Shown: one piece after another, positions 18,344 to 29,460 of the stretch
How the letters are laid out: the number at the start of each line of letters is the position of its first letter
Position numbering within the stretch: position 1 is the stretch's first letter
Source of the DNA: a virus
IMG/VR virus record: IMGVR_UViG_3300046747_000326
Span: 1 to 29,460 of that record
Reading direction: 5' to 3' (one strand)
DNA length: 29,460 bases
Notes under the pieces: generated by a model
The model's database searches: none
Seen by the model: only the letters and a program-made list of their open reading frames with translations
What the model was told of the DNA's origin: nothing
Position numbers and translations under genes: made by a program

Positions 18344-20263
18344 TCAGGCTGCCTGTGGCATTAGGTCCGACTGTGGGGCGGGCTGCGGTTGTCCCTGTGG
18401 CGTGGCGCCAGGCTGGGCGCCCATCGGCGGCGCAGCGGCGAGAGGCGCGAGCATCTTTGACATGAGGGCGTCCACCTGCTGGCTGTACGTACGCAGCAGG
18501 TCGAGCTTCTCGGGCTCCAACTCGAGGCGACGGTAGAGCTGGATGTAGTGCAGCACCGTCTCCTTGCAGAGCGCGAGGTCATCGGTCGGCTCAGGCGGCG
18601 TGTACTCGCCGTCGTCAACGATGCGATCGAGCGCTTCAGTGATGAGCTCTTCCTGTGCGTCGGCGAGCGAGTTCGATGCCTGGAGATCGGGGAAGTCCAT
18701 CAGCTTCCGGCCCTGCCGCGGCGTCAGCCAACCGGCCTGCACCCACTCCTGAATGGTTTGCGTGCGGCCCGCGGGGTCTCTCGGCAGCGACGAGACGGGG
18801 AAGCATTGCAGCACCTGCTCTTCGTCTTTGGTGCCGGCGAGGTCGGCCGTGCTGATGCTCTTAAAGCCCGACGCGCCTGGGACGCGAACCTTGTAGCCCT
18901 TGAGCTTCGAACCGAGAGCGCGAGCGATGCGCGCAATCTGCAGAAAGTAGTCGTCGTACGCCTCGGCCTTGCCCTTGTGCCGCTCGTTCTGGGTGTCTTT
19001 GTACTCGCGGAGCGCCGGCTTTGAGTCGAGGCCGGCCGGCTTCATGTTCGAGGCCGACAACTGCGAGACGCCAAGCTGCTCGTAGATGTCCTGCTTCGTC
19101 TCGCGCATCTCCTGAAACACCGACTCATGCAGCGGCGCGGCGGTGAAGAAGACGGGCGGCTTGCCAGGCGCGTGGCGGATGCCGGCACCAATCTCGTTGT
19201 TGATGTGCTCGTCGACAATCTTCGAGCCGTGCTCGACGGCGTACTTGATAGTGCCGGCGAGGCGAGTCGCCTTCTGTGCCATCCAGTAGAGCTCGTTGAG
19301 CCAAAGCTGCTTGCCGCGCACCTGCTCGGCACCACCCTGACTCCAGAAGCCCACGAGCGGCGGGCACCAAGAGAAGTGAGCGAACGGGAAGAAGTCGTGC
19401 GGCCACTCAACGGGCTCCTCGAGCATGACGCCGCTGCCGACAAGCGCGGTGGCCCACTTGCCGCCCTTGAGCTCGCCGTCCGGCGTGTAGCTGGGCAGGT
19501 GCCACGCCTCGGCCACCGCCACCATGTCGGAGATGTTGTTGCCGACGCCGCTCTGTGTGTCTTTGGCGCGCGGGGCCTTCGCGATGTCGTCGCGGTGCTC
19601 TGGCCAGAGTGCGGCGAGCTCGTCTCGGTCAACCACCTTCACGCGGTGCAGGTTACGGGGCGTGCCGTACTGACCCTCAACCTCGTCAAGCCACAACTCG
19701 GCCGGAATGACGCGCTCCAGGCAGATTTTGCCGCCACGCACGAAGACGTACGTGAAGCCGTCGCCCCACACCGCGCCGTCGCGGAACGCCATCGGGCCCT
19801 TGCGGTAGGCCTGCGTCTCGTAAAAGACGCCGTCGTTCCACATCGTGAGCTTCTTCGCCTGGCGCTGCTGTTTGTAGTTGCCGCCGCTCGTCAGGTAGTA
19901 GGGCCGCGGCTTCGTCTCGCCGATGTGAGACACCATCGTATCGATGCCACTGAGGCACGCATTGAAGCGCGCGCCCTCTTTCGACTGTTGGCTGACTTGC
20001 GGTCCGCTCTGTCGAAGCAGCGACGAGTTGGTGCCGTACATGCCGAGGTTGCCGTACAGGCGACCATTCTTCACCATGTTGAGGATGCGCGGCTGCTGCG
20101 CCTTCTCGAGGAAGTTGACGCGATTCGAGATGGCTTCGGCAGCTTCTCGGCCTTTCATCTCCCACCAGCGCGACTCCTGCCGCTCGCCGTTGAATTTCGG
20201 GCGCGCGGGTTTCGTGGGGCTCTTGCCCTCTGGGTCGCTGACTGTGCCGTCGCGATAGTCCAC
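18344..20263 (-). CDS. Portal protein
   Basis: This 639-residue protein has portal features: a polar N-terminus, a mixed alpha/beta body, and a helical stem region. The segment Gln-Leu-Gly-Val-Ser-Gln-Leu-Ser-Ala-Ser-Asn-Met-Lys-Pro-Ala-Gly-Leu-Asp-Ser-Lys begins near residue 391 and is followed by Ala-Leu-Arg-Glu-Tyr. It matches the Gly-x-(x)-Pro-x-x-Leu-x-Ser-(x)-x-Ala-Leu-Arg pattern of podovirus-type portals. The C-terminus is Pro/Gln/Ala-rich, as in the barrel or crown extension. The portal forms the dodecameric DNA channel at one head vertex and binds terminase. The likely start is GTG 20263 with GGAG 6 bases upstream. It heads the virion block, followed directly by the scaffold. Confidence 0.85.
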   Translation of the reverse strand: MDYRDGTVSDPEGKSPTKPARPKFNGERQESRWWEMKGREAAEAISNRVNFLEKAQQPRILNMVKNGRLYGNLGMYGTNSSLLRQSGPQVSQQSKEGARFNACLSGIDTMVSHIGETKPRPYYLTSGGNYKQQRQAKKLTMWNDGVFYETQAYRKGPMAFRDGAVWGDGFTYVFVRGGKICLERVIPAELWLDEVEGQYGTPRNLHRVKVVDRDELAALWPEHRDDIAKAPRAKDTQSGVGNNISDMVAVAEAWHLPSYTPDGELKGGKWATALVGSGVMLEEPVEWPHDFFPFAHFSWCPPLVGFWSQGGAEQVRGKQLWLNELYWMAQKATRLAGTIKYAVEHGSKIVDEHINNEIGAGIRHAPGKPPVFFTAAPLHESVFQEMRETKQDIYEQLGVSQLSASNMKPAGLDSKPALREYKDTQNERHKGKAEAYDDYFLQIARIARALGSKLKGYKVRVPGASGFKSISTADLAGTKDEEQVLQCFPVSSLPRDPAGRTQTIQEWVQAGWLTPRQGRKLMDFPDLQASNSLADAQEELITEALDRIVDDGEYTPPEPTDDLALCKETVLHYIQLYRRLELEPEKLDLLRTYSQQVDALMSKMLAPLAAAPPMGAQPGATPQGQPQPAPQSDLMPQAA

Positions 20264-21554: not shown

Positions 21555-21811
21555 GCGATCTTCTTGCCCTCAATGACGGCTGAGGCCGGCGCAATGACAA
21601 TGCTGCGCTCCCACGACTGCCGCAGCCGCGCGTAGTCGTTCGTGAGCGTCTGATGCGCGAAGAGCACGGCGTTCGCGGCGGGCTCGTACTTCAGGAAGCC
21701 GCCGAGCTGGTTCGCTGCAAGCTGCATCGTCGCGAGCAGGTTCTCGATGAGCAGCAGCGACGCGAGCTGTTCATGGTTCAACTGCATCTGCACGGCGCCG
21801 TTCTGGCTCAT
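21551..21811 (-). CDS. Small helical protein, unknown
   Basis: This 86-residue protein is predicted to be mostly helical, with leucine-rich stretches at about 15-40 (Leu-Ala-Ser-Leu-Leu-Leu-Ile-Glu-Asn-Leu-Leu-Ala). The amphipathic second half contains a Trp-Glu-Arg-Ser-Ile-Val-Ile motif near 67-73. The helices are not hydrophobic enough for a convincing membrane span. It overlaps both neighbours by 4 bases. It may be a small oligomeric protein, but no family is recognised. Confidence 0.58.
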   Translation of the reverse strand: MSQNGAVQMQLNHEQLASLLLIENLLATMQLAANQLGGFLKYEPAANAVLFAHQTLTNDYARLRQSWERSIVIAPASAVIEGKKIA

Positions 21812-22167
21812 TCGTTCTCCATGGCGCGGCGGATGTCATCATCCATGCCCGGGTCCGCGCGCTGGCGCCCGAGCAGTGCGTTGCGTTGATTCACCTCGGC
21901 CGCGCTCAGCACAGGGTGACGTCCGCCGGGCGGCGGCTCGGGCGGCTGGAACTGCCGGCGCCGATGCTCGGCCGCGGCGTCATCGGAGACGGGCGGGGCT
22001 GTTTCATGACCAGAATCCACAACGGGCGTCGCAGCATCTCGCTGCGCACCATGGCCTCCACCCAGGAGTAATTGCGCGTCGCGAATCTCGTTCGCGGCCT
22101 TCGTCATCTGCGCCGCCAGTCGCTTGAGGTCGCCGAGCGTCAGCTTGTCCATCTGGGCTTCGGTCAT
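21808..22167 (-). CDS. Unknown protein with disordered Pro/Asp-rich middle
   Basis: This is 119 residues from ATG 22167, supported by GAGGAG just upstream; a longer in-frame start at 22227 would run across the operator region and has no support. An N-terminal helix (about 3-35, Leu-Gly-Asp-Leu-Lys-Arg-Leu-Ala-Ala-Gln) is followed by a Gly/Pro/Asp-rich disordered middle. A polar C-terminal segment ends in Ala-Met-Glu-Asn-Glu. It is the first gene of the minus-strand run that leads to the portal and lies across a divergent control region from the lipoprotein gene. Its function is unknown. Confidence 0.58.
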   Translation of the reverse strand: MTEAQMDKLTLGDLKRLAAQMTKAANEIRDAQLLLGGGHGAQRDAATPVVDSGHETAPPVSDDAAAEHRRRQFQPPEPPPGGRHPVLSAAEVNQRNALLGRQRADPGMDDDIRRAMENE

Positions 22168-22219
22168 GGCTCCTCGCTGCGTGTCACCGTGCGACGTGTG
22201 GGCCGCATGGTGCCAGACA

Positions 22220-22257
22220 GTTGCCATTCAGGCAAGTCTCGTTGCCAAACAGGCAAC
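22220..22257. promoter_or_regulatory. Two tandem TTGCC-N5-GGCAA palindromes
   Basis: The sites read GTTGCC ATTCA GGCAAG (centre about 22228) and GTTGCC AAACA GGCAAC (centre about 22249). Their centres are 21 bp apart, two helical turns, in the divergent gap between a minus-strand gene (start 22167) and the plus-strand lipoprotein gene (start 22296). This is the layout of a repressor or activator binding two dimers side by side. The second site closely matches a third copy near 24967. Confidence 0.62.
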
Positions 22258-22295
22258 CACTTGCGCGATTCGACCCTCGTCACAACGATAAGGGA

Positions 22296-22568
22296 ATGCG
22301 CTATCTCGCCCTGTCGCTGCTCGTCGCATGTGGTGCCCCTGTCGTCCCTGCCACGTCGTGCCAGGCCACGCCAAGCCACGAGGCTCCGTGCTGCAACTTC
22401 GGCGAGCAAAGGTGCGTCGGCACTCAGCGATGGTCGTGTGAGGACCGCCCGCCCTGCTACGACTACGAGTCGGTCGATGGCAACTGCCCGAACGCACCAG
22501 ACGGCGGGGCTCTACATCCCGAACTCATCACTCAGCTCGTGTGGTTCGAGAACAGTACCTGCCCCTAG
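22296..22568 (+). CDS. Cysteine-rich lipoprotein, probable cargo (moron) gene
   Basis: This is the only convincing plus-strand gene. From ATG 22296 the 90-residue product starts with a short basic-hydrophobic signal and a lipobox (Leu-Leu-Val-Ala-Cys-Gly) with Cys12 as the lipidation residue. The mature part has eight further cysteines (22, 32, 33, 40, 48, 54, 64, 89), probably disulfide-bonded outside the cytoplasm. AAGGGA lies one base before the ATG, a weak Shine-Dalgarno. It is convergent with terminase and their stop codons overlap by two bases, so no terminator separates them. Two operator-like palindromes lie 40-75 bases upstream. An opposite orientation in a one-way phage block, with its own control region, is typical of lysogenic conversion genes. 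Function unknown; superinfection exclusion or host-surface change are possible. Confidence 0.65.
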   Translation: MRYLALSLLVACGAPVVPATSCQATPSHEAPCCNFGEQRCVGTQRWSCEDRPPCYDYESVDGNCPNAPDGGALHPELITQLVWFENSTCP

Positions 22569-23989
22569 TACCAGTCGGCTTCATTCTCGGGGTTGCGCCG
22601 CTCGGTGCGATTGGCGGCCATCTCGCGCTCAAGCTCAGCGTCGAGATCGGCCTGCTGCGAGGCCTCGAGGGCTGCGATGTGTTCTGGTGAGCCCGGACGC
22701 GGGGCCTTGGGCTTCTCGGGCTCCTCGAGCCAGTGCAGTGCCTCGACGTAGGCATAGAGCAGCCCGTCGGCCGTGTCCGAGTGAAACCGGTCGCTGATTT
22801 TGGGCTTCTCGGGGTTGCTCCGGTCCCACTCGAGCAGCAGTGCCTCCTGAGCGAATCGCGAGTCGGGCGGTACGAAGAGCTGGCGCGTGCGAAGCGCTGA
22901 GTTCACCCATTCGATGTGCTCGTTCTTGCGCAGCTTGTCGGCCGCGGCGATGGAGATGCGATGCCGCGCGCCGATGCTCTCCGCGAGCTTCTTGCCGCCG
23001 CCACCCGTGTCCATGACGACGGCCAGCGGCTGGTACTTCTCGTAGACCTTCACGACCTTCGCAGCCAGCGCGTCGATGTGCTGCTTCGCGCAGACGTCCT
23101 CGAAGACGAGGTCCACCTCGCGCACGTGGTCGCTCCATCCGAGCACGTCGATGGCGTCTGCGTCATTGAAGCCGACATCGATGCCGATGACATGATGCTG
23201 ATGCTCGCGCGCTGGCCGCGTGTTGATGCTCGCGTCGAAACTGAACACGAGCGAGTTGGGGTCGCTCACCCACTGGCGAAACCACTCGCGCTGAATCACC
23301 GGGTCGTTGACGGTGACGCCGCGCCGCTTGAGTTCGGCCTCGAGCAACTGCTGCGGCGTCTGCCCACTCTTGCGCTCGATGTGTGGGTTGTCGAAGACGG
23401 TCCAAGAGTGGTGCGCCCACTCGGCGGAGTGACACGCGGAGTGGAAGTAGCCGACCGGCACCGGGCCTGGTGTGCCAACGAGCACGAGCAGGCCAGCGAA
23501 ATCCATGAGCGCAGGCATGAGCACTTCGTCAATGAGCCGCTGCAGCATGAGCGTCGGGAAGCTCTGTGCCTCGTCAATGACAACGATGGCGAGCGCCAAG
23601 CCGCGGAACTTCTCCACCTCGCCCATGTCTGCGCAGCCCGTGAGGTAGATGCGCGCTCCGTTCGGCAGCGTGAGTAGAAGCTCGGACTCGTTCGCTACGC
23701 CGCCAATGCCGTGCTCCGAGTTGAGGGACTTGAGGATGTCCCATGCGAGCCGCTTCGCGTTGATACGCGAGAGCGTGATGTACAGGCAGACGCTATTGGG
23801 TGTGCTCTCGGCCTTCTTGAGCAGCTTCGCGAGCAGGCCGACCGTCTTGCCGCTGCGGCGCGTGCAGCACGCCGTTTGAAAGCGCGCTTCGTCGAGGCCG
23901 AAGGGCAGTTGCTTGCCGAAGAGAGCGCGGGCGAGATCGAACGGCGGAGGTCGTTTGGGGTTGCGACGGCGAAACAGCTCATCCGCCAT
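22565..23989 (-). CDS. terL: Terminase large subunit
   Basis: From ATG 23989 (474 residues; an in-frame GTG at 24007 adds six) this is the packaging motor. The ATPase half has a Walker A-like Thr-Arg-Arg-Ser-Gly-Lys-Thr at 43-49 and a Walker B Ile-Val-Val-Ile-Asp-Glu-Ala at 135-141, with Glu140 as the catalytic acid. A coupling-type Gly-Thr-Pro-Gly lies at 172-175. The RNase H-like nuclease half has Gly-Ile-Asp-Val-Gly-Phe-Asn-Asp at 269-276 with Asp271, a second acidic site near Val-Met-Asp-Thr-Gly-Gly-Gly, and a third near Ser-Asp-Thr-Ala-Asp-Gly-Leu. It cuts concatemers and pumps DNA through the portal. Neither start has a clear Shine-Dalgarno. The small subunit is not obvious; the gene ending at 24138 is a candidate. 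Confidence 0.92.
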   Translation of the reverse strand: MADELFRRRNPKRPPPFDLARALFGKQLPFGLDEARFQTACCTRRSGKTVGLLAKLLKKAESTPNSVCLYITLSRINAKRLAWDILKSLNSEHGIGGVANESELLLTLPNGARIYLTGCADMGEVEKFRGLALAIVVIDEAQSFPTLMLQRLIDEVLMPALMDFAGLLVLVGTPGPVPVGYFHSACHSAEWAHHSWTVFDNPHIERKSGQTPQQLLEAELKRRGVTVNDPVIQREWFRQWVSDPNSLVFSFDASINTRPAREHQHHVIGIDVGFNDADAIDVLGWSDHVREVDLVFEDVCAKQHIDALAAKVVKVYEKYQPLAVVMDTGGGGKKLAESIGARHRISIAAADKLRKNEHIEWVNSALRTRQLFVPPDSRFAQEALLLEWDRSNPEKPKISDRFHSDTADGLLYAYVEALHWLEEPEKPKAPRPGSPEHIAALEASQQADLDAELEREMAANRTERRNPENEADWY

Positions 23990-24007
23990 GTCGCGCGGCG
24001 AGGGCAC

Positions 24008-24137
24008 TAAAATGCTCGGCGACCAGAGACTTTCACTCTGGAATTCCCAGGTTGAAGCCCGACATCGGGTAACGGGTTTCGCGCAGGGAGGTTTCTTTTC
24101 GCGACATTGCGCGCATTAGCTTATCGCCGATCCGAAC
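24008..24137 (-). other. 130-base structured gap before terminase
   Basis: The gap holds several inverted repeats (plus strand): CCAGAG/CTCTGG at 24024-24042 with a 7-base loop, the palindrome GGAATTCC at 24041-24048, and CCCGA/TCGGG at 24059-24070 with a 2-base loop. A 27-codon minus-strand ORF from 24117 to 24034 crosses them but lacks a clear ribosome site. The region could be a terminator, a small RNA, a leader, or a packaging (cos/pac) site; no single assignment is supported. Confidence 0.35.
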
Positions 24138-24410
24138 CTAGTGTGCCTCCGGTTGCTTCGCTGACTCACGCTCGCGCCACAACTCCTTCACGCGCGGCAG
24201 CCACTTTGAGTCACGCGCGTCGATGTGCAGCCCGGCGAGCGTGTTGAGCGCGAACACCAGCGCGTTTCCGACCTTCGGCTCGAGCGTGCCTGCTTCGATG
24301 CGTCGACAGACGAACTTCAGCGCGCGGCGAATCTCGGCGAGGTTGTCGAGCTGGCGGCCTTCGGGCTCTAGCTCTGTCGCAGGGGGGTGGGGGTTAATTT
24401 CGTCCGACAT
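24138..24410 (-). CDS. Small helical protein upstream of terminase, possible small subunit
   Basis: This 90-residue protein has a polar, Pro/Glu-rich N-terminus (about 1-18). A helical region at about 20-60 (Leu-Ala-Glu-Ile-Arg-Arg-Ala-Leu-Lys-Phe-Val-Cys-Arg-Arg-Ile) is followed by a hydrophobic helix (Ala-Leu-Val-Phe-Ala-Leu-Asn-Thr-Leu-Ala-Gly-Leu), and the C-terminus is charged. Small terminase subunits are short, helical DNA-binding proteins encoded just before the large subunit, so position makes this the best candidate here. No clear helix-turn-helix can be identified by eye. The gene ends in the structured 130-base gap. If it is not the small terminase it is an unknown early or packaging protein. 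Confidence 0.5.
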   Translation of the reverse strand: MSDEINPHPPATELEPEGRQLDNLAEIRRALKFVCRRIEAGTLEPKVGNALVFALNTLAGLHIDARDSKWLPRVKELWRERESAKQPEAH

Positions 24411-24419
24411 GGCGCGAGT

Positions 24420-24731
24420 TTACTCCTGCGCCGCGTAGGCCACACACCGCACGTCGCCGAACGGCACGAACGTGCGCGCAGTCAGCTGTTTGTTGGCCGC
24501 ATTCGAGTGTCGCCGCCGCGAGAGCAGCAACCCGTTGGCCGGCTTGCCGCTGCGCTCGAAGGTGCCGTCCGAGAGCACCGTCACGGGCTCGATGCTGTCG
24601 ACGACGTTGCCGGGCTGGTGCGCCTGGCCGCTCATCGGCAGCGATGCGGAGTCGCGCTCCTCGCCGCAGATGTTCACGCTGCGGTTGAAGTACACGACGG
24701 TGATGCGCGGCGGCTTCGGTGCGTCCGACAT
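24420..24731 (-). CDS. Unknown small protein
   Basis: The 103-residue product starts at ATG 24731, chosen because GAGGAG lies 5 bases upstream. An in-frame GTG at 24737 would overlap that ribosome site. The sequence is mixed alpha/beta in appearance, with a beta-like start (Ile-Thr-Val-Val-Tyr-Phe-Asn-Arg-Ser-Val-Asn-Ile-Cys) and a basic patch (Ser-Arg-Arg-Arg-His) near 71-75. It has three widely spaced cysteines or none in a metal-binding pattern, no signal peptide and no membrane helix. It sits between the operator-linked small gene and the small gene before terminase. No family is recognised. Confidence 0.6.
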   Translation of the reverse strand: MSDAPKPPRITVVYFNRSVNICGEERDSASLPMSGQAHQPGNVVDSIEPVTVLSDGTFERSGKPANGLLLSRRRHSNAANKQLTARTFVPFGDVRCVAYAAQE

Positions 24732-24733
24732 GG

Positions 24734-24943
24734 TCACTCCTCTGGAACGTACAGCTGTGCCTCTTGCGCTCGCAGCAACAGCGCGGAAGCGAAGTCTTTC
24801 TGCAGCACGCCGTAGCTGGGCTTGCGAATCTCGAGAGCGAGGGCATGGAAGAACGCCTGCGACTTGGCCAGCGTGTGGTCAATGACGCTCACGGTTCCGT
24901 TGCTATCAATGGCGATGGTGTTCGACAGCTCAATCGAGCTCAT
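24734..24943 (-). CDS. Unknown small protein, first gene after a palindromic operator
   Basis: This 69-residue protein has a beta-like N-terminal half (Ile-Ala-Ile-Asp-Ser-Asn-Gly-Thr-Val-Ser-Val-Ile-Asp) and an amphipathic helical C-terminal half containing Ala-Leu-Leu-Leu-Arg-Ala-Gln-Glu. ATG 24943 is preceded by GGTGG. It is the first gene after a 58-base gap holding the third TTGCC-N5-GGCAA palindrome and a CACCAATGGTG palindrome, so its transcription, and perhaps that of terminase downstream, may be regulated there. It has no known family and no membrane or signal sequence. Confidence 0.58.
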   Translation of the reverse strand: MSSIELSNTIAIDSNGTVSVIDHTLAKSQAFFHALALEIRKPSYGVLQKDFASALLLRAQEAQLYVPEE

Positions 24944-24966
24944 GCGCCACCAATGGTGTCAGGGCC

Positions 24967-24981
24967 TTGCCGTTTTGGCAA
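24967..24981. promoter_or_regulatory. Third TTGCC-N5-GGCAA palindrome
   Basis: TTGCC GTTTT GGCAA lies in the 58-base gap upstream of the gene starting at 24943. Read on the minus strand it is GTTGCC AAAAC GGCAAG, matching the second lipoprotein-promoter site at all but a few spacer and edge bases. CACCAATGGTG (24948-24958) is a second palindrome nearer the start codon. Together they suggest a regulated promoter for the packaging genes. Confidence 0.55.
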
Positions 24982-25001
24982 CCCGCGTGTCTTGGCGGGC
25001 A

Positions 25002-26903: not shown

Positions 26904-27718
26904 GTCGCTCCTCGCATCGATGCTTCGTTGGTGGAAACCACGGTGCCCTCACGCAGGCGGTCGACCAGCCGCGACCCCAGCCACGTGCTCAGTTCGGTCG
27001 GCGTGCGGTTCGTGGTGATGACCGTCTTGCGCCGCCCTGCATGACGCTGCGTGAGCACGTCGTCGACCCACGCGCGCCACGCTGCGCGCTTCTCATTGAG
27101 TTGCTCGCCCTCGCCGAGGTCGTCGAGCACCAGCACGCCAGCCTGAGCGCAGCGCCAGCGGTACTCTTCGGCCTCGCCACCGTACAGCGGCGACTCCGAC
27201 ACGCTCGGGCAGATTGCGCACCACGGCGGGAAGTTGCGCTGCATGAGCTGGAACGCCGCGTACGTGGCAGCCTGCGACTTTCCGCAGCCGCGCGGGCCAG
27301 ACAGCACGAGGCACCACGCGACGCCATCGAGCATCCAGTCACGCGTCGCCGTGAAGCACGCGTTGTCGCGCAGCTCACGCATCGAGCGCTCCACGAGCAC
27401 CTGGTCGATGAAGCCAGCGCGCCGCATTCGCTCGCGCGCGTAGGGCTCCGAGCCGTAGCGCTCTTCGTAGAGGCGCAGCTCTTCGGCCTTGGCCTGTGCG
27501 CGCAGCTCGAGCCATCGCGCCGCCTCAGTCGGGTGCGCGTACTCCCAAGCCTCGACGGTGGCGCGGTGCTCGGCGAGCAGCGTACGGCTGAGGGCCTGGC
27601 GGACGCTGAGCGCTGGCCGGCCGAGCGCGACCATCTCGGCGTCGATGGCGACTTGGCGCGGCGTGTAGCCCGGGGCGAGCGGACGCATGTGCTCGGGCAG
27701 CGATGGGTTGGTGCTCAT
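26900..27718 (-). CDS. dnaC: DnaC-like AAA+ helicase loader
   Basis: This 272-residue protein has an AAA+ core with Walker A Gly-Pro-Arg-Gly-Cys-Gly-Lys-Ser at 141-148 and Walker B Val-Leu-Val-Leu-Asp-Asp-Leu-Gly-Glu at 195-203. A sensor-1 Thr-Thr-Asn-Arg lies at 235-238 and Gly-Ser-Arg-Leu-Val-Asp-Arg-Leu at about 247-254 (arginine-finger region). This is the pattern of DnaC or IstB-type loaders that place the DnaB helicase on the origin. The N-terminal 120 residues are mostly helical and charged. It overlaps the initiator-like gene by 4 bases, a common phage pair. With no phage polymerase in the window, host DnaB and polymerase III would be recruited. IstB (transposition) is less likely because no transposase is nearby. 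Confidence 0.88.
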   Translation of the reverse strand: MSTNPSLPEHMRPLAPGYTPRQVAIDAEMVALGRPALSVRQALSRTLLAEHRATVEAWEYAHPTEAARWLELRAQAKAEELRLYEERYGSEPYARERMRRAGFIDQVLVERSMRELRDNACFTATRDWMLDGVAWCLVLSGPRGCGKSQAATYAAFQLMQRNFPPWCAICPSVSESPLYGGEAEEYRWRCAQAGVLVLDDLGEGEQLNEKRAAWRAWVDDVLTQRHAGRRKTVITTNRTPTELSTWLGSRLVDRLREGTVVSTNEASMRGAT

Positions 27719-28530
27719 AGGAAAACTCTCCCTTCGGGGCGTGGCGTGGCGGGCTCTTCACGGCGGGCGGCGGGTGGGCCGGTGCTCCGGTCAAAGGCGC
27801 CCTCGAGTACCTTCGTCGCCGACTCGGGCTTTTTGCCCTCAGCACGAATGGCCCAATCGAAGTCGGCCTTCCAGCCGCCGTCGGAGCCGCGAAGGAATGC
27901 GCTGGCGTTGATGCGCAAGAACACCGCGCGCCACTCGTCGAGCGGGCGACGAGCGAGCGCGGCGACTGCGACCGATGCCCTGATGGGACTCAGCGGCAAC
28001 GTCACTCGCGGCAGCGGCGCGGTCGTGGTTTCGTTCCACGCGACCGCGAGCGGGGTGCCGGGGGCCTCGCGCGCCGCGGGCGCCAAAGAAGGCCCCGAAG
28101 GCCCCGCAGGCTCAGAAGTACTAGAAGGCTCAGAAGACAAGGCGAAATTCTCTTTCCGGCCGGAACGAGCCGCGGAAAGGTTGTCCTTTTCACGGCTCGT
28201 AGTAATTCCGGCCCAGTCCGGTAGCCTCGACGCCATCTCCTTTGGGTGGACGCGCTGGTGTGTGGTGAATCCTGGGATACCGATGCACCTCACGCCCCCG
28301 ACCTCGTAGCGAACGATGAGGCCGGCATCGGCCAGCTCGGCGAGGTACTTTGGTGTCGTCTTGGGCTCCCAGGGTCGAATCTTCAGGCCGATGGTGACCG
28401 GCTTGTCTTCGAGGCGCCCGTCGCGGTCGGCGAGACACCACAGACCCTGGAACATCAGCTTGGCGCCGTCGCTCACCGACACGATGCGCTCGTCGGTCCA
28501 GAAGTCTGGCTTAAGGTCTCGAGTCCTCAC
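27715..28530 (-). CDS. Replication initiator / replisome organiser-like protein
   Basis: This is 271 residues from GTG 28530, supported by GGGAGG four bases upstream. The start resembles phage replication organisers: Asp-Leu-Lys-Pro-Asp-Phe-Trp-Thr-Asp-Glu-Arg-Ile, then Ala-Lys-Leu-Met-Phe-Gln-Gly-Leu-Trp-Cys-Leu-Ala-Asp-Arg-Asp-Gly-Arg, a winged-helix-like N-domain (about 1-115). A Ser/Pro/Ala-rich linker (about 120-170) leads to a C-terminal region with Phe-Leu-Arg-Gly-Ser-Asp-Gly-Gly-Trp-Lys-Ala-Asp-Phe-Asp-Trp near 211-225. That Trp-Lys-x-Asp-Phe-(x)-Trp pattern is known from phage replication proteins. It probably binds the phage origin and hands over to the loader encoded next; the origin may lie inside or near this gene but I see no iterons. 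Confidence 0.78.
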   Translation of the reverse strand: MRTRDLKPDFWTDERIVSVSDGAKLMFQGLWCLADRDGRLEDKPVTIGLKIRPWEPKTTPKYLAELADAGLIVRYEVGGVRCIGIPGFTTHQRVHPKEMASRLPDWAGITTSREKDNLSAARSGRKENFALSSEPSSTSEPAGPSGPSLAPAAREAPGTPLAVAWNETTTAPLPRVTLPLSPIRASVAVAALARRPLDEWRAVFLRINASAFLRGSDGGWKADFDWAIRAEGKKPESATKVLEGAFDRSTGPPAARREEPATPRPEGRVFL

Positions 28531-28730: not shown

Positions 28731-29026
28731 GAACCATCCCCCAGCAGCGCCCGCACCGCCGCGCCAAGGTCGGCATCGTTCGGGTAGCGCTCGGCGAGCG
28801 CCGCAATGCGCGCGACGAATCGCGGGGCCGTGTCGGGCGCCGGCTCGTAGTCGATGGCGCTCTCGGCGTGGTGTAGACCTCGCCGCCGCCGCCGCGCCGT
28901 GCCGCCGCACTCGGTGCAGTCGCGCGTGAAGCCGTCGAGGCCGGTGCGTAGGCCGTTGACGCAGTGGCGACAGTTTTCGAAGAGCTCGGCGCGGGGGTCG
29001 AAGGCGCGTTCGTCGTGGATGGTCAT
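28727..29026 (-). CDS. Zinc-ribbon (DnaJ-type Cys4) protein
   Basis: This 99-residue protein has Cys19-x2-Cys22 and Cys37-x2-Cys40-Gly-Gly, a Cys4 cluster of the DnaJ or ribbon type. An Arg-rich segment (Arg-Arg-Arg-Arg-Arg-Gly near 45-50) and an acidic, alanine-rich helical C-terminal half follow. The Arg patch next to the ribbon suggests nucleic acid binding. Start ATG 29026 overlaps the winged-helix gene by 4 bases. It could be a small regulator or an anti-host factor; neither can be shown here. Confidence 0.62.
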   Translation of the reverse strand: MTIHDERAFDPRAELFENCRHCVNGLRTGLDGFTRDCTECGGTARRRRRGLHHAESAIDYEPAPDTAPRFVARIAALAERYPNDADLGAAVRALLGDGS

Positions 29027-29229
29027 GGCGCCACCCCCGGCAGGCAGTAGTCACCAGCACGCAGCCGCACGACGAGGCCGCGCTTGACCGCGCGCTGGAG
29101 CATCTGGTGCACGCCGTCGAGCCGCAGCCCGAGGCGTTGGGCGATGTCGTGGGGGCGGATGCTGTCGCCCTGGTGCGGCACCAGACGGAGGAGGCGTTGC
29201 ATCTTCTGGGTGAGGGGGCGGTGAGTCAT
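29023..29229 (-). CDS. Small winged-helix DNA-binding protein
   Basis: This is 68 residues from ATG 29229; the upstream in-frame start at 29316 lies inside the preceding gene and was rejected. The sequence is a compact winged-helix pattern: helix 1 (Lys-Met-Gln-Arg-Leu-Leu-Arg-Leu-Val), a turn with Asp-Ile-Ala-Gln-Arg-Leu-Gly-Leu (helix 2), then a recognition-type helix (Gly-Val-His-Gln-Met-Leu-Gln-Arg-Ala-Val-Lys-Arg-Gly-Leu-Val) and a short beta wing. This matches MarR/IclR-like small phage regulators in architecture. It is a candidate to bind the TTGCC palindromes described above, though there is no direct evidence. Confidence 0.62.
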   Translation of the reverse strand: MTHRPLTQKMQRLLRLVPHQGDSIRPHDIAQRLGLRLDGVHQMLQRAVKRGLVVRLRAGDYCLPGVAP

Positions 29230-29460
29230 GGGCGCACCTCGGCGCGCGCGGCCTTCTCGCGGCAGACGCAGATGTTTTCCCGAGTGAGCACGAGCTGAAC
29301 ACCGGGCTCGCCGCACGACTGAGCGCAGGCCGTGGTAAAGTCGCCGGGCGTACAGCCCATGCCCTTGCAGTTCAGCGCAAGGGCCAAGAGCAGGGCGATT
29401 CGCCGTGGAAACCTCGTGGACTTCGCATGTTTGGAATGGTTTGTTCCGAGGCGTTCTAAG
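29226..29460 (-). CDS. Cysteine-rich small secreted or lipoprotein, 5' end beyond window
   Basis: The minus-strand frame is open from the window edge to a TGA at 29226-29228, where it overlaps the ATG of the next gene by 4 bases. It reads Arg-Arg-Ile-Ala-Leu-Leu-Leu-Ala-Leu-Ala-Leu-Asn-Cys-Lys-Gly-Met-Gly-Cys-Thr-Pro, a signal-like hydrophobic core followed by cysteines. Then come Thr-Ala-Cys-Ala-Gln-Ser-Cys-Gly-Glu-Pro and Ile-Cys-Val-Cys-Arg. No convincing ATG with a ribosome site is visible inside the window, so the start is probably upstream, or at a rare codon. The frame is coupled to the downstream gene, which supports its being translated. The function is unknown; exported Cys-rich phage proteins can affect the host envelope. 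Confidence 0.5.
   Translation of the reverse strand, partial: LERLGTNHSKHAKSTRFPRRIALLLALALNCKGMGCTPGDFTTACAQSCGEPGVQLVLTRENICVCREKAARAEVRP

Follow-up and report, generated by a model that had tools for sequence, protein, structure and literature searches.

The window analysed here, a stretch of 29,460 bases of phage DNA in which no terminal repeats were found, is probably a fragment of a phage genome. Nearly all of its genes lie on the minus strand, and they encode an initiator, a DnaC-like loader, a RusA-like resolvase, small proteins, a terminase, a portal protein, a capsid protein and one tail protein. The gene for the terminase large subunit, terL (22565-24007, minus strand), was assigned by its match to phrog_2 (E 5e-34); the capsid and portal proteins had no match among the public (named) phage records searched, and an Rfam search of the window gave no match. 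Tail to tail with terL, and antisense to the other genes, an open reading frame with a lipobox at 22296-22568 on the plus strand encodes a 90-aa lipoprotein (MRYLALSLLVACGAP...), whose start was set at the ATG at 22296 because of the signal peptide. Its label as cargo is a guess. The adjoining small minus-strand gene at 21808-22167 (gene 21808) starts at either 22167 or 22149 and encodes an N-terminal region that by eye resembles one in a related contig, L004. Profile searches found no family match for this gene or for the lipoprotein. On the other side of terL, an open reading frame of 69 aa at 24734-24943 on the minus strand (gene 24734), with a stretch 44% identical in the related contig L056, is followed downstream by genes 24420 and 24138 and then terL. 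Between terL and gene 24138, a gap of 130 bp contains a perfect inverted repeat, CCAGAG-ACTTTCA-CTCTGG (24022-24040), which might be a terminator or have a role in packaging.

A single regulator-like gene was identified in the fragment; it encodes a 68-aa MarR_2-type helix-turn-helix protein (29023-29229, minus strand; PF12802, E 3.9e-7, above its cut-off). Upstream of this gene, at 29230-29400 on the minus strand, is a reading frame resembling that of a secreted protein or lipoprotein (...RRIALLLALALNCKGMGCTPGDFTTACAQSCGEP...), and near the contig end, at 29418-29450, lies a near-palindrome, on the minus strand GGAACAAACCATTCC, that could represent a second type of operator.

Scanning the whole window for the pattern TTGCC-N5-GGCAA identified three exact matches, each a proposed operator, and no fourth. 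Site 1 (22221-22235) reads TTGCC-TGAAT-GGCAA on the minus strand, site 2 (22242-22256) reads TTGCC-AAACA-GGCAA on the plus strand, and site 3 (24967-24981) reads TTGCC-AAAAC-GGCAA on the minus strand. With the outer bases included, the sites are GTTGCC-ATTCA-GGCAAG, GTTGCC-AAACA-GGCAAC and, on the minus strand, GTTGCC-AAAAC-GGCAAG, respectively. Sites 1 and 2 are in tandem, 21 bp apart from start to start and likewise from centre to centre, within a divergent non-coding gap of about 130 bp (22168-22295), and site 3 lies within a 58-bp non-coding gap (24944-25001). The sites are dispersed across 2.7 kb, flank terL and are not AT-rich. The exact positions agree with the first-pass annotation, which had reported three near-identical palindromes, all intergenic, with tandem centres 21 bp apart, and had quoted their sequences correctly. 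It had also called for a scan of the pattern to see whether it is common at random; in the window it is not, with three exact sites found against 0.042 expected from the product of the half-site frequencies.

No TTGCC/GGCAA pair occurs in the window at any spacer from 0 to 15 bp other than 5. When up to two mismatches were allowed there were 24 matches, the only one with a single mismatch being at 20049-20063, inside the portal gene. Because any palindrome could have caught the eye at the outset, the arm and spacer were left free in a shuffle test: after correction over all 5-bp arms and spacers, a repeated palindrome this extreme arose in 2 of 100 dinucleotide shuffles, and none of the 100 contained a closely spaced tandem pair whose arm was equally rare. 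The three palindromes are real and stand above chance.

Read on the minus strand, site 1 (TTGCCTGAATGGCAACTGTCTGGCACCAT) and site 3 (TTGCCAAAACGGCAAGGCCCTGACACCAT) both follow the form TTGCC-N5-GGCAA-N4-CTG[AG]CACCAT, with 9 of 10 flanking bases alike at the same offset, an agreement matched by 2.35% of random position triplets treated alike. On this strand of the window TTGCC-N18-CACCAT occurs at these two sites only, and in the relatives it was not seen at all (0.48 expected). The distance from TTGCC[TA] to CACCAT is 17 bp at both sites, which is the usual gap between a -35 box and a -10 box. A candidate leftward promoter was placed at 22207-22235 (minus strand; TTGCCT at 22235-22230, N17, CACCAT at 22212-22207; predicted start ~22200), and a candidate promoter for the packaging genes at 24953-24981 (minus strand; TTGCCA at 24981-24976, N17, CACCAT at 24958-24953), with a predicted start at ~24946, 3 bp ahead of the ATG of gene 24734 (24943). 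A leaderless candidate promoter for the lipoprotein gene spans 22261-22296 on the plus strand, with TTGCGC (22261-22266), N17, AACGAT (22284-22289) and the ATG at 22296; it fits the consensus poorly and was missed by the promoter scan, a sigma-70 consensus scan of the window that found no promoter. The regions upstream of the lipoprotein genes are laid out alike in the window (TTGCGC-N17-AACGAT-6-ATG), in L004 (TTGACG-N17-CACCTT-6-ATG) and in a further relative, L055 (TTGACC-N19-TAGGCT-6-ATG), and by eye TTGACG-N18-TACCCT can be read directly ahead of the gene 24734 homologue of L056. There is no general excess of TTGAC 35-37 bp ahead of start codons in the relatives, so the leaderless promoter reading draws on a few genes only. 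We infer all three promoters, at sites 1 and 3 and ahead of the lipoprotein gene, from these sequence features.

The one-mismatch palindrome in the portal gene, TTGCCGTACAGGCGA, is likewise followed by CACCAT at equal distance (20049-20077), on the plus strand and thus opposite to the gene; it was provisionally taken as a chance occurrence within coding sequence, but it counts against the promoter reading.

Matching sites in related phages, on which the first-pass annotation had made its proposal depend, were absent. No exact TTGCC-N5-GGCAA was found in ~0.55 Mb of related contigs, and three relatives whose records were scanned in full had none even when one mismatch was allowed. L004, whose terminase is 72% identical and which carries an antisense lipoprotein gene at the equivalent place, has a different palindrome there instead: the sole perfect 5-5-5 palindrome in its gap is TTAGA-CTTTT-TCTAA, which stops 69 nt short of the start of the corresponding downstream gene, compared with 71 nt between the end of site 1 and the ATG at 22149. 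Perfect 5-5-5 palindromes are not rare in L004 (5 per 4,231 bases), giving about a one-in-six chance of one in that gap, so the weight of this observation comes only from the matching position. Conservation of the position but not of the sequence would be consistent with divergence of the immunity type. In distant relatives, the palindromes found at repressor loci showed no resemblance to the window sites. A terminase alignment added one distant relative only, and searches with the DnaC-like gene or gene 24420 found none. Among the 14 records searched, HTH_3 genes were present in four distant relatives and an integrase in one, and temperate members therefore probably exist. The style of the lipoproteins of the window, L004 and L055 hints at myxobacterial hosts, which is only an impression.

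When 2.9 million viral contigs were scanned for TTGCC-N5-GGCAA in two copies within 30 bp, 48 contigs were obtained. The spacing of the close pairs peaks at 33-34 bp, TTGAC or GTCAA lies between the paired sites in 30 of the 48, and a relative of HTH_3 plus Peptidase_S24 (CI-like) repressors is encoded within the stretches examined in 20. Given the pairs around TTGAC and the nearby CI-like genes, the palindrome is a probable operator of a CI-like repressor family, one for which no description as a phage operator was found in the literature searched. The survey thus points to TTGCC-N5-GGCAA as an operator that recurs beside CI-like phage repressors. The operators of this kind in L009, L021, L031, L035 and L040 have the same palindrome as the window, with an AT-rich centre, and likewise occur in pairs at promoters; there the two sites of a pair lie 33-34 bp from each other on either side of a TTGAC -35 box, and the repressor gene is close by. 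The window resembles them in having more than one palindrome. It differs in that its sites lie before late genes and the lipoprotein gene, in that no HTH_3 and S24 gene is found near them, and in that its pair is 21 bp rather than 33-34 bp apart with no TTGAC between, which is a point against the same interpretation here. As the window is a fragment, the HTH_3/S24 repressor gene may lie outside it.

Pairs exactly 21 bp apart were found in only two other viral contigs, L005 (2678-2713) and L006 (10037-10072), where the tandem sites lie within replication-initiator-type genes and resemble the iterons of lambda O. Bacterial genomes gave 25 stretches with 21-bp pairs, of which the largest group represents a site recurring in Streptomyces, where the pair adjoins GATTGAGCCAG (L062, L065-L067, L071-L073, L075, L079, L080, L082 and L085). 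A Clostridiales contig containing the 21-bp pattern twice was set aside; by eye it looks like a dispersed repeat.

Most likely, the three palindromes together make up the operators of a single regulator that acts on a pair of leftward promoters and on the divergent promoter of the lipoprotein gene. This reading was preferred because in many unrelated phages the palindrome forms paired operators around TTGAC, often near CI-like genes. On balance we favour a single dimeric helix-turn-helix regulator that would bind all three sites, with sites 1 and 3 inside the leftward promoters and site 2 available to a second dimer. At sites 1 and 3 the left arm of the palindrome would serve as the -35 box and the remainder would fill the spacer to CACCAT, placing site 1 within the promoter of gene 21808 and the portal and capsid genes, and site 3 within the one that would drive gene 24734 together with the packaging genes. 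Because the palindrome would occupy the -35 box and the spacer, the bound protein would be expected to block RNA polymerase, and so to act as a repressor, at both the portal/capsid and the packaging genes. A second, possibly cooperating dimer could sit on site 2, which lies immediately ahead of the lipoprotein promoter, 21 bp behind site 1. The regulator itself would most likely be CI/XRE-like, with its gene in the portion of the genome that the window lacks. The search for the phage's own repressor, which the first-pass annotation had recommended, yielded neither an HTH_3 gene nor an integrase match in the fragment, only the small MarR-type protein. The suggestion that a single regulator connects the packaging genes with the lipoprotein and the minus-strand genes is therefore upheld in part: the palindrome above chance, its recurrence near CI-like genes and the shared flank speak for it, while the relatives lack matching sites and the fragment has no HTH_3 gene by which the regulator would be the phage's own. 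A further proposal is decidedly tentative, namely that in this uncultured phage group the packaging and structural promoters and the antisense lipoprotein gene are direct targets of the regulator, by way of operators incorporated in the promoters, and that relatives exchange one operator sequence for another at a fixed position (TTGCC here, TTAGA in L004), much as lambdoid phages swap immunity specificity.

Recognition by a MarR-family regulator rather than a CI/XRE protein, whether the phage's own MarR-like protein (29023-29229) or one of the host, is unlikely. MarR is about 140 aa long, roughly twice the length of the window protein, which at 68 aa therefore probably lacks the dimerisation helices; the half-sites of marO are less than five bases apart, a shorter spacer than in the window, and in other phages the N5 form goes with XRE/S24 genes. 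The reading is kept because the window does encode a MarR_2-type protein and because the half-sites recognised by E. coli MarR are also TTGCC, arranged at marO as inverted repeats with two sites per operator (PMC6158253). Borrowing of sites for some other host regulator, through which the phage would adjust the timing of its own genes, or of the lipoprotein, to the physiology of the host, appears distinctly unlikely, the palindrome being so strongly tied to phage repressors elsewhere; the fragment does, all the same, contain no CI-like gene, and the recurrent 21-bp pairs in Streptomyces genomes imply that cellular regulators of such geometry exist.

Chance, or RNA hairpins formed with no DNA-binding protein involved, would be an improbable explanation of three sites where 0.04 were expected, of a tandem arrangement found in no shuffle, of the non-coding placement and of the shared flank. 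The two shuffles that matched the repeat statistic and the lack of the motif in every relative would fit chance, and folding of the three regions is slightly better than that of shuffled sequence (z -1.7 to -2.3), as any palindrome would give; in the plus-strand fold, however, the tandem sites pair with each other instead of forming two hairpins. A role in replication or packaging, as initiator-bound iterons or as recognition sites of the small terminase, was counted as a rival because the 21-bp pairs of L005 and L006, both with the same palindrome and the same 21-bp repeat as the window, lie inside initiator-type genes, and the window sites do flank terL. We regard it as very improbable. The L005 and L006 iterons are within initiator coding sequence, whereas the window sites are intergenic, ~2.7 to 6 kb from an initiator gene (27715-28530) that contains no TTGCC-N5-GGCAA repeats; they are also dispersed over 2.7 kb, are not AT-rich and have promoter-like flanks in two of three cases.

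If the favoured reading, a single regulator acting at all three sites, is right, that regulator would coordinate the packaging genes, the structural genes and a surface lipoprotein, and the palindrome offers a concrete DNA probe for finding it. The kind of element is well known; what seems to be new is its location and its apparent incorporation into packaging and structural promoters.

The lipoprotein gene itself may be likened to a phage moron: it appears to be an additional gene within a structural operon, lies antisense to it and has a candidate promoter of its own, and those of L004 and L055 are comparable. It differs from morons in that one pair of operators would serve both this candidate promoter and the promoter of the structural genes. 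L056 has no lipoprotein gene between terL and the next gene, and that of L055 sits elsewhere. By eye the lipoproteins of the window, L004 and L055 are unlike one another. The lipoprotein genes of the relatives (L004 1554-1916, L055 8413-8817 and L118 771-1172) are seemingly mutually unrelated, and several of them are antisense to structural genes.
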